From a bacterium EF100-94H03 bin56 (GTDB lineage: Bacteria > Pseudomonadota > Alphaproteobacteria > SP197), in the NCBI GenBank assembly GCA_002238685.1, contig MPMV01000001.1, positions 62,001 through 126,000 on the forward strand: 64,000 bases of DNA, read 5' to 3'. The notes beneath the pieces are model-generated. The model was not told the origin of the DNA, ran no database searches, and worked only from the letters and a program-made list of their open reading frames with translations. The translations under genes were made by a program, and so were the position numbers. Within the stretch, counting starts at the first letter, position 1, and each line of letters opens with the position of its first letter. Of this stretch, positions 5,315 to 27,423 are shown in pieces.

Positions 5315-6224
5315 CGTCCAGGTGGCGCCGCAGGAAGGCCGCGATGTCACGCAGGGAACGGTCGGCTTCCGGCAGTTCGTCGTAGAATTCGAAGACGTGC
5401 CACAGGTCGTCCCAGACGCGGAGCGCGACGTCCGCTCCGGCGCTCTCGAGAACGGTGGCGAGAGCCCTGTTCTGATCAAGGAGGAGATCGCGTGTTCCCG
5501 TGGTGATAATGACCGGGGGAAGGGGTTCACTCCACGCGCCGCACAAGGGGGAAAGGTCCGGATGGGCCAGCTCACGTCCCCCTGAATAGAGCAGCGCCGC
5601 CTGGCGAGCCAGATCGCGGGTCAGTGTCGGATCACGACCGTCATTGCTGAAATGGCTGTCATCTTCGTGCGTAAGATCACTCCAGGGAGAGAGAAGGGCC
5701 ACGGCGACTGGCATGGTGGCGCCGGCTTTCATGGAACGTCTCAGCAGACAAAGTGCAGCATTGCCGCCCGCCGATTCGCCGGCGAGGGCCAGTGGACCAC
5801 ACGACGGGTCGGTCGTGATCACGGCGTGGACCGCCATGCAGTCGTCGATGGCTGCCGGATAGGGGTGTTCGGGCGCCAGGCGATACCAGGGTGCCACCAC
5901 CCGTGCCCCGGCATGCGCGGCGAGAGCGGCACTGACAATGAGATCCTCGCGTGGACTGCCCATGATGTATCCACCGCCGTAGCAATAGAGGATCGTTCCA
6001 GGCTTGCAGTCGCCACGGGGGACGATGTCAAGACAGTCGATGCCGCCCATCGTGGTCTCCCGCACCTCGACGGGATACCGGTCAAGGGCCCGCTCTATCC
6101 TGGGAGCATACTCGGCAGCGAGCCCCGCTCTTGTCGCTTCCAGGTTGTCTGGCGTCACCTCGCGGAGAGGCGCATCGAGACCGGCGGCGATGAAGGCGCG
6201 CGCCTCGTCGCTGCTCGGCGTCAT
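5307..6224 (-). CDS. Alpha/beta hydrolase, hormone-sensitive-lipase family esterase
   Basis: Cytoplasmic carboxylesterase-like protein of 305 aa. The nucleophile is Ser151 in GESAGG, with Asp246 in GTRDLLLD and His276 in DDLWHVF completing the triad. The oxyanion-hole motif that is HGGG in most family members reads YGGG (residues 82-85) here. The conserved YRLAPEHPYPAA follows at about residue 114. It is 18 bases downstream of the GMC oxidoreductase gene on the same strand and probably co-transcribed. The natural substrate is unknown. Confidence 0.88.
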   Translation of the reverse strand: MTPSSDEARAFIAAGLDAPLREVTPDNLEATRAGLAAEYAPRIERALDRYPVEVRETTMGGIDCLDIVPRGDCKPGTILYCYGGGYIMGSPREDLIVSAALAAHAGARVVAPWYRLAPEHPYPAAIDDCMAVHAVITTDPSCGPLALAGESAGGNAALCLLRRSMKAGATMPVAVALLSPWSDLTHEDDSHFSNDGRDPTLTRDLARQAALLYSGGRELAHPDLSPLCGAWSEPLPPVIITTGTRDLLLDQNRALATVLESAGADVALRVWDDLWHVFEFYDELPEADRSLRDIAAFLRRHLDGG

Positions 6225-6242: not shown

Positions 6243-7877
6243 TCAGTTTCTGAAAGCGGAGGCATGTGAAGGCTCCATCGGGTTGTGGCCACGCACGGCA
6301 TCGGCAAGTTTTTCGGCCATCATGAGCACCGGCGCGTTGAGGTTTGCCGTCACGTTGTGCGGCATGATCGAGGCGTCGACAACGCGCAACGCCTCGGTGT
6401 CGTGCACCCGTCCCTGGTGGTCTGTCACCGAATTGTCCCCGGTTCCCATGCGGCACGTCGAACAGGGGTGATACTCGGAAGAGCCCGTTTGCGCCAGCCA
6501 GGCGCGCAACTCGGCGTCGCTCCGGACATCCTCTCCGGGCATGAGTTCCTCGGCGCGCCACGGGTCGAACGCCGGCTGGCGTACCATCTCGCGGGTCCGC
6601 CCGAGAGCCTTCACCATCACGTCTGCATCGTCGTCGTGCTGGAGATAGTTGAAGACAATGGCCGGTGCATGGCGCGGATCGACCGTCGTCAACCATACTC
6701 GGCCGCGGCTCTTCGGGCGCATGAGTCCCATGGAGAACATGAAGCCCGGGGCCACGTTCGCCTCCTCGGCATCGGCGAAACCGCTCATGGGGTAGAACTC
6801 GTGCTGCATGTCGCAGTAGAGGGCGTCTGTGGAACTGGAAAAGAAGGCTCCAGTTTCCGAGAGTGTCGATCGTCCGACGCCGCGCTTCGCGAGCAGCCAC
6901 GCCAGACCGGTTCCGGCGCGCCGCCAGCCCCTGAACTGGTGCGATACCGACAGTGGCCGCTCTTCCGCATGGACGATCTGGACGATCAGGTGGTCCTCGA
7001 GACCGTGTCCGACATGGGGCACGTCGGCCACGAGTGGAATGCCGTGTTCGGCCAGATGAGCCGGGTCGCCGACTCCGGAAAGCAGCAGGAGCTGAGGCGA
7101 ATTGATGGCGCCGCCGGCGACGATCACCTCCTTGAGGGCCTCCAGACGGCGGACTTCCCCCCTGACCCCGACATCGACGCCGACCGCCCTCCTGCCGTCG
7201 AATACGATGCGATGGACCAGGGCCTTCGCCATCAGGGAGAAATTGGTCCGGCTGAGAGCCGGTTTCAGGTAGCCGGACGCCGCACTCCAGCGCTGTCCCC
7301 TGCGCGTGAAGCTCTGGGCGACATGAAATCCCTCGTGGTGTGCACCGTTCTGATCGTCGGTGACGTGGTATCCGGCCTCTTTGCCGGCCCTGAGGAAGGC
7401 CTGGTCATAAACGTGCTGCGCCGGGCAGGTCTCGATGAACTGCGGGCCTTGGTCACCCCGCCAGGCATCACCACCACGATCGAAGGTCTCGCTCTTGCGA
7501 AAGTAGGGAAGGCAATGGGCGAAGGACCAGTCGTCCAGGCCCTCGCTCGCCCAGGTGTCATAGTCCCGGGGATTGCCGCGATTGGCCACCATGCCGTTGA
7601 TCGATGACGATCCGCCCAGGACGCGTCCCCGGCGGGCCTGTATCCGTCGGCCATTCAGGAAGGGCTCCGGTTCGGTCACATACCCCCAGCCGAACCGGGG
7701 GTCACGGGCGACCAGCGCCGCGGCCGCCGGCATGGAGATGGAAAGCCCCCGGTCGCTGCCCCCCGCCTCGATCAGCAGCACCCGCACGCCCGGATCCTCG
7801 CTCAGGCGGTTCGCCAGCACGCATCCGGCAGTCCCCGCACCGATGATGATGATGTCGTGGCTTGCCGATCTCTTCAT
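6243..7877 (-). CDS. GMC family oxidoreductase (choline/alcohol dehydrogenase-like)
   Basis: FAD-dependent alcohol-oxidising enzyme of 544 aa. It has an N-terminal dinucleotide-binding fold (IIIIGAGTAGC), the GMC signature GRVLGGSSSINGM near residue 85, and the C-terminal catalytic pair His470 (YHPCSTCRMG) and Asn514 (TANLNAP). These are the His/Asn pair of choline oxidase-type enzymes. The start at MKRSASHD is chosen because the FAD motif follows directly; the frame extends 29 codons upstream without family similarity. It precedes an esterase gene on the same strand, so the two may act on an ester and the alcohol it releases (inference). Confidence 0.9.
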   Translation of the reverse strand: MKRSASHDIIIIGAGTAGCVLANRLSEDPGVRVLLIEAGGSDRGLSISMPAAAALVARDPRFGWGYVTEPEPFLNGRRIQARRGRVLGGSSSINGMVANRGNPRDYDTWASEGLDDWSFAHCLPYFRKSETFDRGGDAWRGDQGPQFIETCPAQHVYDQAFLRAGKEAGYHVTDDQNGAHHEGFHVAQSFTRRGQRWSAASGYLKPALSRTNFSLMAKALVHRIVFDGRRAVGVDVGVRGEVRRLEALKEVIVAGGAINSPQLLLLSGVGDPAHLAEHGIPLVADVPHVGHGLEDHLIVQIVHAEERPLSVSHQFRGWRRAGTGLAWLLAKRGVGRSTLSETGAFFSSSTDALYCDMQHEFYPMSGFADAEEANVAPGFMFSMGLMRPKSRGRVWLTTVDPRHAPAIVFNYLQHDDDADVMVKALGRTREMVRQPAFDPWRAEELMPGEDVRSDAELRAWLAQTGSSEYHPCSTCRMGTGDNSVTDHQGRVHDTEALRVVDASIMPHNVTANLNAPVLMMAEKLADAVRGHNPMEPSHASAFRN

Positions 7878-7976: not shown

Positions 7977-8594
7977 CTATGGAATGGCTGTGCCGAGATG
8001 CTCGCAGAAAACATGTGCATAGCTCTGAACAATGCCAGTCGCGGGATCAACGAAGTCGTCAATGTCCAGACCGTCTCGGTCGATATGGTCGAGAACGTCT
8101 GCCCTGTCCTTTCTGAATTCGGGGTGGTTCAGATTCAATACGTCGATCATCGATTCTGCAGGCGTATCACCGGCAAGGGCGGTCGCGACTTCGCCGGACA
8201 GCAGGAAGCGGAAGCGATGTGTGCACGAGGGATAGTTCGGTTCGACGCAACCGGTCTCGTCGAACCGGTCGGCCTTTGCGTGTCCGCATGTCTCCGAGGG
8301 CTTTCCGGCCTTTGCTTCCGGGCCACAACTCAAGAACAGATTGTCGAGATCCAGTTGGAGATCGGGGTAAGTGGATCGAGGTCGGAAGTGCTCAATGTGG
8401 AACTGCCCTGGCTGGCCCAAATGGAGCCGGCGACCGCAATAGACACACAGGCCGCGTTGGGCACAGCTCAACGCATCGACGACGAACACCCGGATATCGC
8501 CTGGAAGCGGGTACGAAGGCTCCCAGTCAGGACTTGCGAGAGCCAGCCAGGCTGCGAACTCGGAGGGCATCGTCTTCACGTGGCTACCTCTCAC
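7977..8594 (-). CDS. ptuB: HNH nuclease of a Septu-like (PtuB / TIGR02646) defence module
   Basis: Predicted HNH endonuclease of 205 aa. Zinc-type cysteines Cys50 and Cys53 (CVYCGRRL), the core HIEHFRP with His66 and His69, Asn85 in LDNLFLSC, and a distal Cys103/His105 pair match the PtuB family found in Septu and with some retrons. The GTG start overlaps the stop of the ATPase gene (GTGA), so the two are translationally coupled. Known Septu systems restrict phage by nuclease action of PtuB assembled with PtuA. No reverse transcriptase gene is visible, which argues for stand-alone Septu rather than a retron. Confidence 0.8.
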   Translation of the reverse strand: MRGSHVKTMPSEFAAWLALASPDWEPSYPLPGDIRVFVVDALSCAQRGLCVYCGRRLHLGQPGQFHIEHFRPRSTYPDLQLDLDNLFLSCGPEAKAGKPSETCGHAKADRFDETGCVEPNYPSCTHRFRFLLSGEVATALAGDTPAESMIDVLNLNHPEFRKDRADVLDHIDRDGLDIDDFVDPATGIVQSYAHVFCEHLGTAIP

Positions 8595-10147
8595 TCTGCG
8601 CGCCTCAACTTCTTCAGCCGTTTGCGCAGGAGAAGAAGGGTCGGCGCGTCACCCGCGATTTCCCGTTCAAGGCTGTCCAGCGTGTCCACTGCCGTTGCAG
8701 CGTCCTGCTTGTCGATGGCCGTGTTGAACGTGTCGATCAACTGGTCAATCGGCGGGAAACGCTCGCGTGCGCCTAGCACCCCTTCGAGAAGGTAGTTGCT
8801 GGTTCGTCCACGCGTGCTGAGAGGAACGGTGACTCTCCAGGACCAACCGGGTACGTCCTCTTCAATGATGCGCACCTTTCGGCTCTCCACGCCTGACAGC
8901 ACCTGGGGAGAATGCGTGGTCACGATGAACTGGCAGGCGCGGAAGACGTCCGTGAGGGTCGACAGAATGTCGCTTTGCCAACCTGGGTGCAGGTTAAGTT
9001 CGATCTCGTCGATCAGAACAATGGCCGAAATCTGTTCCAGAGGCTTGCCGGGAGCGAATGCCTGAAGTCGTCTTGCCAAATCGGCAAGCAAGATGATGTA
9101 GGAGCGTTCGCCGCCGGAAAGGCCGCTGACATGAACCGGAGTACCGTCGTTCTTGATGAAATGAAGACCCGGGGGCAACGTTGTCGAATTGAAGACAACA
9201 CCGGAGAAACTGTCGATCCTTTCGATGAGGCTTCGGATGGCTTCGAGTTGCGGGTCCCGGTAGTCGCGCTCGCCATCCCTGACCCGACGAGCTTCCTGTG
9301 CGTCAAGTTGGTCCCACCATGCTCCGAGATCTCTGATCGCTCTCAAGTTGACCCCGAGCGAGCGGTCCTGAACCGTGTCCGGGTCCAGGATGTCGCCGGT
9401 TGTCGTCGAGTGCGCAGAGTCATCCCCTGGTTCAAATCCCCTGTCTTGGCGATAGTAGACAAGGCGCGGCGGAGAGAGGACCTGTTCCGGTGGCTCCACA
9501 GTATCTTGCGGAGGATTGAATCTAGGCCGGCGACCGTCGCTGAAGATGCTGAGTGAAAGCGTGCTGCTTTGAGGTGTCTCCAACTGTAACTTCCTGACCT
9601 CGCAGGTCGCCTGCAACGTGGCACAGTCCTGACCTTCGCGAACGTCCTGAGCAGACGGTCGGAGACCAACTTCAGTTGTACCGCGTTTCCCTGGTTGAGT
9701 GCGTGAGAGATTGAAGATGATGGCCAGTGCATCCAGGATCGATGTCTTTCCCGCTCCGTTTCGGCCTACAATGACGGTCACATCGGGTTCAAAGCTGAGC
9801 ATCAGGTCTTTCGCGCCACGAAAATCTGTCAAGTGCAGATCTGTGAATCGCATCGTCCATGACGTTTGAATCTGGTCGTCTGGTGGCTCTACTGCGTCCG
9901 CGTTTCCTGCGCTCATGGCTGGTTGCTCCGGCGCCCGCCTGAATTTTTCATTGAACGCGTGGACACTGCCATACGTCTCGACAACTCGGGTCTGAACCTT
10001 GCGCATCATGTCCTGACCGCGTTCCGGCCAGCCGTGATACTCGAACATCTCAAGGTATCCACCGAATTGGCGCTCCGCAATCTCGGCGATGGCCTTTGCG
10101 TCTCCGCCCGGAAGAAATCTCCTCGGTGCCATACCGTCACCTTCCAT
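8591..10147 (-). CDS. ptuA: AAA/SMC-like ATPase of a Septu-like module (PtuA)
   Basis: ABC/RecF-like ATPase of 518 aa from the chosen start. Starting at residue 99 (MRFTDLHLTDFRG) it shows the typical N-terminus, Walker A GRNGAGKTS (128-136), signature LSGGE (343-347), Walker B IVLIDE (to about 381) and the histidine switch in TTHSPQVL (His412). About 98 residues precede the ATPase domain; they read as real coding sequence but resemble nothing recognised. The ATG at 10147 has GGAG six bases upstream. The frame is open to a TTG at 10240, so the extension could be longer. Coupled to the PtuB nuclease gene downstream. Confidence 0.8.
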   Translation of the reverse strand: MEGDGMAPRRFLPGGDAKAIAEIAERQFGGYLEMFEYHGWPERGQDMMRKVQTRVVETYGSVHAFNEKFRRAPEQPAMSAGNADAVEPPDDQIQTSWTMRFTDLHLTDFRGAKDLMLSFEPDVTVIVGRNGAGKTSILDALAIIFNLSRTQPGKRGTTEVGLRPSAQDVREGQDCATLQATCEVRKLQLETPQSSTLSLSIFSDGRRPRFNPPQDTVEPPEQVLSPPRLVYYRQDRGFEPGDDSAHSTTTGDILDPDTVQDRSLGVNLRAIRDLGAWWDQLDAQEARRVRDGERDYRDPQLEAIRSLIERIDSFSGVVFNSTTLPPGLHFIKNDGTPVHVSGLSGGERSYIILLADLARRLQAFAPGKPLEQISAIVLIDEIELNLHPGWQSDILSTLTDVFRACQFIVTTHSPQVLSGVESRKVRIIEEDVPGWSWRVTVPLSTRGRTSNYLLEGVLGARERFPPIDQLIDTFNTAIDKQDAATAVDTLDSLEREIAGDAPTLLLLRKRLKKLRRAE

Positions 10148-11031
10148 GTGGTGCTCCACTATGCCCATCTGCGTGTCGAACAGTTTTTCTGGAGCCTTTC
10201 CATCACGCAAGCCCCGGGGCGAACACCTGGAATCGGGCAAGCCATTTCACTGTGGTCATCGCTGGCCGCTTCTTGGCTCTGCGAGCGTCCCGTAGTGAGG
10301 TCATCGTTTCAACGCCTTGACATTACGATGCTTCTGTTCTCTCCAGCGGGTGTGACACAAGTGTGACAACAATGACGTTGCGACTTGCCGATTGCTCGAT
10401 ATTGAAAGTGTTGGTGCTCTCAGGTCAGACCCCAAACGCACAGGCCAGCAGGGTGTGGGCGCCGATACCGCGCCTAGGCTTGCGCGGTGCATTGGGACGG
10501 CACCGGAACTCCGGATGAACCTGCGGAAGACATGGGAGTTTTGTCGGGCGGCGAAATCGGGGGAGGGTGGCGCTTCGGCAAGTGGTGGAACAAGGTGCGC
10601 AAACCCGTTCCGCATCGACCGTCTTCGACACCGCGGCGCCCTTGCCAGGTGCATCTGCATCAGGAGATCCCAGCGAGCTCATTGTGCGAGCCTGAGAGTC
10701 ACAGCCGGGGCATCCCAACAAAGTCGGTTTCTGGAAACGAAGCCGTGGGCCATAGCCGTGCATTTTTCCGAATCGCCGACCCCCGCCTTCGGTGATCATG
10801 GCTGCCGGATGGCGCTGGTCCGCTCCACGCCCGTGGTGGCAGCCACATGCATAACCCCCTTGATCATGCTGTGTTCCGAAGTTCCGGGGCCAATCAACAT
10901 GCAAGAGCAATGCGCTTGGGTTGGTTGATGAGTCGCTCAAGCACGTGCCAACCCATCGCCGATGCGTTAAGCAGGGTCACCGCCACCCTCACGAGTGCGG
11001 GAACTCTCGAGCGGTGGCGAAGGAGCGTGCG
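10148..11031. other. Mostly non-coding region between ptuA and the aminotransferase operon
   Basis: About 880 bases separate two divergent units. Next to ptuA, on the minus strand, a 33-residue reading frame (about 10205-10306) ends at a TGA just before the ptuA frame. It could be a leader peptide or the displaced start of ptuA. The repeat GTGTGACA occurs twice in a row near 10350. The rest (10400-10990) holds only open frames with unnatural composition on both strands; nothing was recognised. AAGGAG at 11020-11025 serves the aminotransferase. Confidence 0.4.
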
Positions 11032-25381: not shown

Positions 25382-25711
25382 TCAGCGCTTCGGGAAGGGA
25401 ATGACGTTCCCCTTGTCGCCGGTCTCGTTCGTGTGAACCGTGATGGGCAACGGGTCGCCCTCTCCATCTGCGGTTTTCGGACGGATCTCCACTTCGTACT
25501 CGATCCCGGGCTTGAGATCGACAAAGGTGCATGTGGGTAGCGGCGTCTCGAAGCCAGGCCCCCACGGGCCCGATTCCTTCTCGCGTATGCGGATCACATA
25601 GGTGACAGACGATTCCCACCGGACATCGATCGTCTGTCCGTCATGGACCGGAAGTGATGCGTGCCAGGTCTTGCCATCCCATGTGACCTTCGGGTTCCTG
25701 GTGTCGGTCAT
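25382..25711 (-). CDS. Small fibronectin type III-like protein
   Basis: 109-aa protein with one FN3-like beta-sandwich: a conserved W near the start, VTYVIRIRE, GPWGPGFETPL, then the typical TCTFVDLKPGIEYEVEIRP turn. No signal peptide, so probably cytoplasmic. The ATG overlaps the stop of the methyltransferase-HNH gene (ATGA), so the products are likely made together. An FN3 domain would suit protein-protein binding, for instance recognition of the fusion enzyme or of a foreign protein (inference). Confidence 0.8.
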   Translation of the reverse strand: MTDTRNPKVTWDGKTWHASLPVHDGQTIDVRWESSVTYVIRIREKESGPWGPGFETPLPTCTFVDLKPGIEYEVEIRPKTADGEGDPLPITVHTNETGDKGNVIPFPKR

Positions 25712-27423
25712 GGTGGCGCCCATTCCTCGATCCGGTGCTCCGTGCGCAACATCTGCCGGCGGCCCTGAAGTCCTTCAAAGACCTTGTCGGCATCCGCAAC
25801 CCCGGACGGATCGAGCATCAGGGAGGAGCGTGCTTCGGCAAAGAACCGGTCGCTCGCCCGCTGCACGTAGCCCTTCTGCCACCATGTGCAGATCCGGTCC
25901 CGGGCGTCGTCGAGAGCATCTGCAGAGGGAAGCCGGGCGCGTTTCTGGTGCTGGTTGACGCGCCTGTCGGTGGGCAGAAGGTTCCACAGGGCATCGCACG
26001 GCCATGCTGCCCACGGCATGCAGTGATCGATGTTGATCTGTTTTCTGTCGAGTTTGCGGCCGGTCCAGACGCAATGGAGACTGCCTTCCTCGAAGAGTTC
26101 CTGGGAGACTCTGCGGGCGAATCCGACGTCTCGGTCGGGATCGGACCACTGCATGGCGGCCTCGACGCGCCGATGATCGAGTTCGTTGCCCCGTGTCGTG
26201 GCCCAGTCCGTCATCAGCTTCATCCATTCTGAGATCAGTGCGGGCTCGATCCACGCGTCATGGCGCATGAGGGAGTTCCACAGATGGAGTGGAATGCGAA
26301 GATCGCCGAACTGCGCCAGATACTCCCGATCGACGAGAACGGAGCCGGGTGCCGTGCCGACCCTGGATGTGTGTGCCTCGAACACCTGCTCATCGGAACC
26401 GGGAAGGGTCATGTAGTGAATCGGCATTGTGACGAGCGTACCCACGGCATCGCGAAGCGCCTGGTGCAGGCCACGGGCGTGGGCGCCTGAAAAGTACTGG
26501 CCGACACGCAGGTCGAAGGCGGGGAGATCGCCGATGGCGCGCCAGCCCTTCTTGACAAATCCAAGATTGGTCACGCCATCCTTGCCGGGGCGCTGCGGCA
26601 GTCCGGCTTCGACCAACGACTTGTAGAGTCTGAGCCAGTTGAGGGCGACAAGACCGAGAGGCACGGTCACGCTGTCGTCATCCGGATGGCGTGCCATGCC
26701 GGGAGCGCTGTCGGCGGCCCGCGCCACGGCGCGGAGCAGGCCGAGCTTGTAGGTCGAAGACTTCCTGTCATTGAGAATGATGTGGCGGAGCAGGGGCAGC
26801 GCGCCGGTGCCGTCATCGGGGAGCTGCAGGGCCACCTGCTCCCAGTGGATGCCGGGACGGCCCAGACTGTCCGGGCTGGTGCTGCCTGGAAGTGCCATGG
26901 CGCCGTGTCGACGGGCGAGGGATTCGACCTCGGCTGCGCTGGAGGGAAACATGCCATCGTCGGCATCGTCGCCGCCGACACGCAGCGCAAAGATGATGAG
27001 TCCGCCGGGCTTGAGAATGCCGACGAGCTTGCGAAAGGCACGCTGCCGTTCATCCGGATGGACGTGCATCCACACGGCGTTGAGCAGAATGACGTCATAG
27101 CTCAGGCCCCGCTCCACAGTGCGGCCGAGGGAAGGCAGGCAATCGCGGAACCAGGTGACTCTCGGTGTCGGGTGCCGTCGGCGCGCTTCGGCGAGCATCG
27201 TCGCCGAGGGGTCGACTGCCACGACCTCGTAGCCCTTTGCGGCAAACCACGAGGCGTCACGGCCCGATCCGGCGCCGACGTCGAGCACGGCTGCTGGTGG
27301 CGGCGGCAGGTGATCGGCAAACCAGCCATGAATCTCGTCGGGGTCAATCGACTCGTAGCGCTCGGCAAGAGCGCGGCCGGTGGCGTTCTCGTACCGCGTC
27401 AGTTGTCCAGGCGGCCCTTTCAT
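25708..27423 (-). CDS. Fusion of class I SAM-dependent methyltransferase with C-terminal HNH nuclease
   Basis: 571 aa. Residues 1-200: Rossmann methyltransferase with motif I VLDVGAGSGRD (46-56), acidic residue in VVAVDPS, and LKPGGLIIFALR. Residues about 205-330: an unassigned helical region with NDRKSSTYKLGLLRAVARA. Residues about 440-520: HNH core with HCVWTGRKL, INIDHCMPWAAWP (His467) and LWNLLPTDRRVN (Asn481). The second cysteine of a CxxC zinc pair is replaced (CVWT). The methyltransferase part most resembles small-molecule or Tellurite-type enzymes rather than a DNA base methylase. Co-translated with an FN3-like protein. Possibly a defence or genome-conflict module; function not known to me. 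Confidence 0.8.
   Translation of the reverse strand: MKGPPGQLTRYENATGRALAERYESIDPDEIHGWFADHLPPPPAAVLDVGAGSGRDASWFAAKGYEVVAVDPSATMLAEARRRHPTPRVTWFRDCLPSLGRTVERGLSYDVILLNAVWMHVHPDERQRAFRKLVGILKPGGLIIFALRVGGDDADDGMFPSSAAEVESLARRHGAMALPGSTSPDSLGRPGIHWEQVALQLPDDGTGALPLLRHIILNDRKSSTYKLGLLRAVARAADSAPGMARHPDDDSVTVPLGLVALNWLRLYKSLVEAGLPQRPGKDGVTNLGFVKKGWRAIGDLPAFDLRVGQYFSGAHARGLHQALRDAVGTLVTMPIHYMTLPGSDEQVFEAHTSRVGTAPGSVLVDREYLAQFGDLRIPLHLWNSLMRHDAWIEPALISEWMKLMTDWATTRGNELDHRRVEAAMQWSDPDRDVGFARRVSQELFEEGSLHCVWTGRKLDRKQINIDHCMPWAAWPCDALWNLLPTDRRVNQHQKRARLPSADALDDARDRICTWWQKGYVQRASDRFFAEARSSLMLDPSGVADADKVFEGLQGRRQMLRTEHRIEEWAPP

Follow-up and report, generated by a model that had tools for sequence, protein, structure and literature searches.

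Modification-dependent (type IV) restriction enzymes such as the EVE-HNH enzyme VcaM4I, the SRA-HNH enzyme TagI and the SBD-HNH enzyme SprMcrA carry an HNH_2 domain together with a recognizable reader. These enzymes have been described as working without a methyltransferase, and VcaM4I, a restriction enzyme whose activity depends on 5mC/5hmC, restricts T4gt (PMC7897488). The gene analyzed here, located in the window (the whole stretch of 64,000 nucleotides under analysis), encodes a fusion of a methyltransferase, a middle region and an HNH nuclease domain (Table 1), which differs from the modification-dependent enzymes in having an HNH_4 domain and no recognizable reader; members of that enzyme class repeatedly adjoin the fusion in other genomes, and both presumably belong to the same biological context. 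Type IIC/IIG enzymes likewise hold a methyltransferase and a nuclease in one polypeptide, but they carry DNA-methyltransferase motifs and target-recognition domains, neither of which is visible in the fusion. With Cas9 and other HNH_4 nucleases the fusion shares the HNH_4 profile, above its cut-off, and its best structural match; in contrast to Cas9, it has no RuvC, bridge helix or guide RNA, and its HNH domain stands behind a new middle domain and a methyltransferase. With moderate confidence, we read the fusion as a DNA nuclease of the restriction type that keeps company with modification-dependent (type IV) HNH restriction enzymes and belongs to a widespread but undescribed family.

On sequence criteria, we file the fusion with the HNH restriction nucleases and outside type II, type IV and MADS, since one tested defining feature of each of these was missing. 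A type IV reader domain fused to the nuclease was not found, the readers of the relatives lying in the neighboring HNH_2 gene, and EVE, SRA, SBD and YTH domains gave no match to the fusion in either Pfam or Foldseek. Regarding MADS, the PADLOC model for Mad2 (PDLC04134) matches the methyltransferase region (7.9e-21), but membership was rejected because this match reflects the generic SAM fold only and is unspecific; two neighbor genes match mad2, the same number as match Methyltransf_25, and no MADS gene set was recognized beside the fusion in the window. The mad3 and mad8 models (PDLC04135 and PDLC04140) each match 5-6 of 139 control genes, and single-gene MADS matches are thus unreliable, given that these two models match many random genes. 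An identity as the PtuB component of Septu was also discarded, the fusion being a weak match (0.0083) over its HNH part only and having no adjacent PtuA. The window does hold a Septu system of its own, 15 kb from the fusion and in a stretch of lower G+C content (57-59%), in which the PtuA-like and PtuB-like genes overlap by 4 bases (Table 1). No model of PADLOC-DB 2.0.0 (2023) matches the fusion over its full length, the matches being partial ones to the methyltransferase or the HNH part, and no description of the fusion or of its pairing with HNH_2 genes was found in the open-access literature, most subscription papers and preprints lying beyond the scope of the search. Within the open literature and the PADLOC release covered, the family and its HNH_4/HNH_2 pairing are therefore undescribed.

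The initial annotation had described the protein as a methyltransferase joined to an unassigned middle region and an HNH core with His467 and Asn481, and this architecture is borne out by the open reading frame, by Pfam and by the homologs. Pfam identifies Methyltransf_25 (E 4.5e-17, residues about 46-145) and HNH_4 (PF13395; 1.5e-6, 28.5 bits against a curated cut-off of 22, residues 451-499), the latter profile being matched by all seven members of set A1, while residues ~200-440 had no match in sequence searches of Pfam, PDB and PADLOC. In an alignment of 72 full-length homologs, glycines G50, G52 and G54 of the SAM motif are invariant, as are D466, H467, N481 and N490 of the HNH core, the spacing of which is that of D839, H840, N854 and N863 in SpCas9. 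The NDRKSSTYKL segment, which had merely looked conserved in the single sequence, is so in the family, with K221 and T224 retained in 72 of 72 homologs and Y225 and K226 in 71. Moreover, each of the three parts of the fusion shows a dN/dS of 0.12-0.25 among congeners, indicating purifying selection.

Table 1. Features of the fusion locus and of the Septu system in the window (positions are those of the window).
Feature	Position	Strand	Basis
FN3 protein, 109 aa	25382-25711	(-)	Pfam fn3 1.2e-5, just above cut-off
Fusion ORF, 571 aa	25708-27423	(-)	ORF list and translation
C-terminal HNH nuclease domain, HNH_4 / Cas9-HNH-like, residues 441-571	25711..26103	(-)	Pfam, Foldseek, model
HNH_4 core, residues 451-499 (D466-H467, N481, N490)	25927..26073	(-)	Pfam and invariance
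Middle region, residues 197-440, without known family or fold	26104..26835	(-)	
NDRKSSTYKL segment, a hallmark at the N terminus of the HNH_4 module (residues 218-227)	26743..26772	(-)	Conservation
SAM-dependent methyltransferase domain of class I at the N terminus, residues 1-196	26836..27423	(-)	Pfam, Foldseek, invariant glycines
PtuB-like HNH protein (Septu)	7977-8594	(-)	PADLOC 6.9e-37
PtuA-like ATPase (Septu)	8591-10240	(-)	PADLOC 3.7e-75

Structure prediction gave confident models both for the whole fusion with the 72-row alignment (AlphaFold2, pLDDT 89.9, pTM 0.88) and for its C-terminal 375 residues alone (pLDDT 90.1, pTM 0.90). The best PDB matches of the C-terminal model in Foldseek are Cas9 HNH domains (8f43, E=0.017, prob 1.00), and the modeled HNH part consists of strands 463-467 and 482-486 followed by a helix at 487-494. 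The HNH site, the failure of which to form had been named as evidence against the original reading, is thus predicted to form, with a confident model that has Cas9 HNH domains as its best match. With no Foldseek match of the C-terminal model at E<=1e-3, the middle domain lacks a recognized fold, and a target-recognition domain was not apparent, the middle domain having matched nothing in sequence or fold searches.

Foldseek searches with the methyltransferase domain return small-molecule and RNA class I enzymes (best match 3e23, at 1.3e-8), and by family and fold comparison the domain resembles UbiG, CmoM, TehB and METTL6-type enzymes. The earlier remark that no DNA-methylase motif is visible stands: motif IV, either of the DPPY type or PC, is absent from the fusion, the corresponding strand reads DxILLxAVWMH, and the families and folds matched are those of non-DNA class I methyltransferases. 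Relatives of the domain that stand alone, without an HNH part, are exemplified by Orf3 of Escherichia phage phi458 and by a further protein (L007), with 33-40% identity over ~190 aa, and the fused domain probably derives from this type of stand-alone methyltransferase; in phi458, the orf3 gene lies behind the integrase and overlaps one that encodes a probable membrane protein. Since stand-alone HNH_4 proteins exist as well, the fusion joins two modules that are also found apart. Among 5426 complete E. coli genomes, 29 carry a nearly identical version of the two-gene unit of phi458 (OP434518; L172, 2336-3519), which is formed by the probable membrane protein Orf2 and the methyltransferase relative Orf3 (33%) and looks like prophage cargo. 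Among viral proteins, one of Vibrio phage VAP7 (BFVD A0A4Y5TVG5, E 1.3e-10, TM 0.81 on the phage protein) comes closest in fold to the methyltransferase domain, clearly ahead of the others.

A search of GTDB genomes with a profile built on the last 388 residues of the fusion retrieved 283 relatives, of which the best 80, and hence only the closest ones, were analyzed as loci (L021-L100), using a simple ORF procedure for gene calling and a quick tree. They belong to Pseudomonadota, Acidobacteriota, Nitrospirota and Rhodothermota, with one cyanobacterium and one actinomycete bin, bin assignments being liable to error. Virtually every one of the 80 loci that is not cut by a contig end has the methyltransferase fused, as do the full-length loci from a separate search of Pseudomonadota. 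Given these 283 relatives, the fused state of virtually all those examined and the low dN/dS, the fusion is genuine and not a chance joining. Its distribution is sporadic: 17 of 398 Pseudomonadota genomes hold a copy or a clear remnant, one further genome having a short HNH match only. Members of the family, the stand-alone form included, occur on 23 plasmid records; IMG/VR yielded one relative (L180, C-terminal and incomplete), INPHARED yielded none of the HNH part, and a DNA search of E. coli genomes found no relative.

An HNH domain, plasmid carriage and broken copies, such as the frameshifted ones in L061, in L069 and at a second site in the congener G007, are what one might expect of a selfish element, that is, a homing-type or plasmid-maintenance nuclease moving between replicons. 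We consider this very unlikely, as no intron, intein or insertion boundaries were seen, the congeners share the genomic neighborhood of the gene at low dN/dS, and the linkage to HNH_2 genes reported below would be left unexplained. The second copy in G007 (G007:C77; L101, 3238-4952) is 64-67% identical and frameshifted at the junction of the methyltransferase and middle parts; close to it lie a gene resembling PIN-type toxins and one resembling ribosomal L25, and the fusion copy of L025 also lies near an L25-like gene.

The companion originally proposed for the fusion was the small FN3 gene, the ATG of which overlaps the TGA of the fusion gene (ATGA), an arrangement suggesting that the two may be co-translated. 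That these genes form a two-gene functional unit would also be in agreement with the purifying selection on FN3 where it is kept (dN/dS 0.08 on 59 codons, in G006). However, FN3 is present at the locus in only two of four congeners, the genome of the window (G000) and G006, where 59 residues at 90% identity precede the end of the contig; it is reduced to a deletion remnant in G007 and absent in G001. The fusion itself is kept in all four, G006 having only residues 1-450 on its contig, and FN3 is missing from all 80 homologous loci outside the congeners. The two-gene unit is thus extremely improbable; we rejected FN3 as a functional partner and judge it to be a genus-level passenger, an incidental neighbor and not a component of the system. 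The initial annotation had set against itself homologs that never keep FN3 and always sit in housekeeping operons; the former is what was found outside the genus, and the latter was not.

Clustering of the genes flanking the fusion brought out a different neighbor, an HNH protein of the HNH_2 type (PF13391), copies of which occur in 13 of the 80 loci (12 intact and one as a split gene), always adjoining the fusion; a partner-profile search of the ~1060 flanking genes found none at non-adjacent positions. When 48 carrier genomes were searched whole, 13 of their 46 HNH_2 genes adjoined the fusion against 0.02 expected (Poisson P 3e-32 if genes are independent), figures that ignore relatedness and to which the 11 changes of this trait on the tree and the six sensor types of the partners are a better guide. 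These 11 changes imply that the adjacency is not one inherited arrangement and that it arose or was lost many times, and the 67 of 80 loci without an adjacent HNH_2 gene indicate that the pair is not obligatory. The partner in L024 matches the crystallized VcaM4I over its whole length (3.5e-90), and the HNH part of nine out of ten tested partners is matched by the NCBIfam model NF045808, 'phosphorothioated DNA-binding restriction endonuclease' (1e-10 to 1e-36), all of these matches falling short of the curated cut-off of the model. Comparison of the N-terminal parts of the partners reveals at least six unrelated sensor types, among them EVE and the sulfur-binding domain, which are interchangeable. 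Small upstream ORFs were considered as a conserved third component and judged spurious, only two pairs being alike and both coming from close relatives.

The same pairing is found where the methyltransferase is not. Plasmid searches uncovered separate HNH_4 proteins of ~380-390 aa in Nostoc, Tolypothrix, Deinococcus and Hymenobacter (L161, L162 and L163 among them), which start just before the 'TYK' segment and keep the D, K and YK of NDRKSSTYKL. An HNH_2 gene adjoins the stand-alone HNH_4 gene, in divergent orientation, on four Nostocales plasmids, overlaps it in Deinococcus NW-56 and lies about 0.6 kb from it in a cyanobacterial genome (G874); the HNH_2 partner in Nostoc C052 combines a sulfur-binding domain like SBDHga1 (7e-16) with a TagI-like HNH domain (2e-5). 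Because these methyltransferase-free forms share the HNH_2 neighbor, the pairing is a property of the HNH_4 module and not of the methyltransferase. The cyanobacterial plasmid loci L161, L176, L177 and L178 share a conserved cluster that may represent a larger restriction locus: genes for a DUF262 protein (not listed for Tolypothrix L176), a ~285-aa protein and an HNH_2 protein of the PT-reader type run in one direction, and those for a 79-aa protein and the stand-alone HNH_4 protein run divergently from them, with a DUF3696 protein downstream. In Hymenobacter L162, the stand-alone HNH_4 gene lies between genes for a helix-turn-helix protein and an NTP-pyrophosphohydrolase (7135-7452 and 5612-5896), another candidate partner set.

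The stand-alone proteins also bear on the notion of a self-contained enzyme akin to restriction-modification systems, in which the HNH domain would cut DNA lacking a mark that the methyltransferase places on the DNA of the host (or on an unusual base), the type IV enzymes being mere co-residents of defence islands. The presence of methyltransferase and nuclease on one chain in virtually all sampled proteobacterial members and the defence-rich neighborhoods would suit such an enzyme, which we nonetheless regard as unlikely: the methyltransferase has no motif IV, no target-recognition domain was recognized, the best relatives of the domain are small-molecule/RNA enzymes, and in cyanobacteria, Deinococcus and Hymenobacter no annotated methyltransferase gene lies beside the nuclease gene. 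The existence of these methyltransferase-free forms means that protection by the methyltransferase is not required.

The wider surroundings of the family are rich in defence genes. The 141 nearest neighbors match 149 PADLOC families, as compared to 18 for 139 control genes, a coarse measure in that one protein can match many models and the control set is small and drawn from those carrier genomes that are isolates. The control matches are mostly to generic models, and the neighbor matches include HNH, ThsA, SspD, AbiLi, SoFic, DpdF and type II methyltransferases. In addition, McrBC is found about 2 kb from the copy on a Roseomonas plasmid, and a C5-methylase (Dcm-type) and a Vsr-like gene, read from the sequence, stand alongside the fusion in L046. 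The copy in the window has no HNH_2 neighbor and is flanked by genes for an EamA transporter and an aminotransferase, among metabolic genes and not in a defence island; the EamA gene holds the same place beside the fusion in G007 and G001, the locus thus being common to congeners, and is missing in congeners without the fusion. The restriction or anti-phage link first suggested for this gene hence holds for the family, with its HNH_2-adjacent loci (13/80), PADLOC-rich neighbors, McrBC and Vsr/Dcm-type genes, and not for the immediate setting of the window copy, the function of which is extrapolated from the family.

This metabolic setting, together with the likeness of the methyltransferase to UbiG, CmoM, TehB and METTL6-type enzymes, could also speak for an RNA or nucleotide modification or processing enzyme that incidentally carries an HNH domain and has no part in defence. 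This explanation, too, is unlikely in view of the sporadic distribution, the carriage on plasmids, the defence-gene neighborhoods and the repeated linkage to modification-dependent restriction enzymes.

Returning to the restriction-type nuclease, the fusion is probably part of bacterial anti-virus defence, and its core would be a module of ~380 aa made up of a middle domain that may bind DNA or a partner and a Cas9-like HNH domain that would cut DNA, to which a SAM-dependent methyltransferase of ~200 aa is joined in most proteobacterial, acidobacterial and nitrospiral members. Most likely, the neighboring HNH_2 enzyme would recognize invading DNA by a modified base or backbone, and the fusion would add a second HNH cut, either independently or in cooperation with its neighbor. 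As for the SAM-binding domain, it might gate cleavage in response to SAM or methylate the target or the partner. More specifically, the pair might constitute a two-nuclease type IV system of a swappable reader-HNH_2 enzyme and an HNH_4 protein whose SAM domain controls cleavage or methylates the modified base into a cut site, in which case SAM-controlled cleavage would be triggered by phages that attack SAM or the reader; we advance this tentatively and hold it to be unlikely.

If the restriction-type reading is true, the type IV arsenal would gain a family of Cas9-HNH-like nucleases whose middle domain matched no known family or fold. Modification-dependent enzymes, which are usually thought to stand alone, could then be accompanied by a dedicated protein that persists as readers are exchanged, and a SAM methyltransferase without DNA-methylase motifs would gain a testable role within a nuclease.
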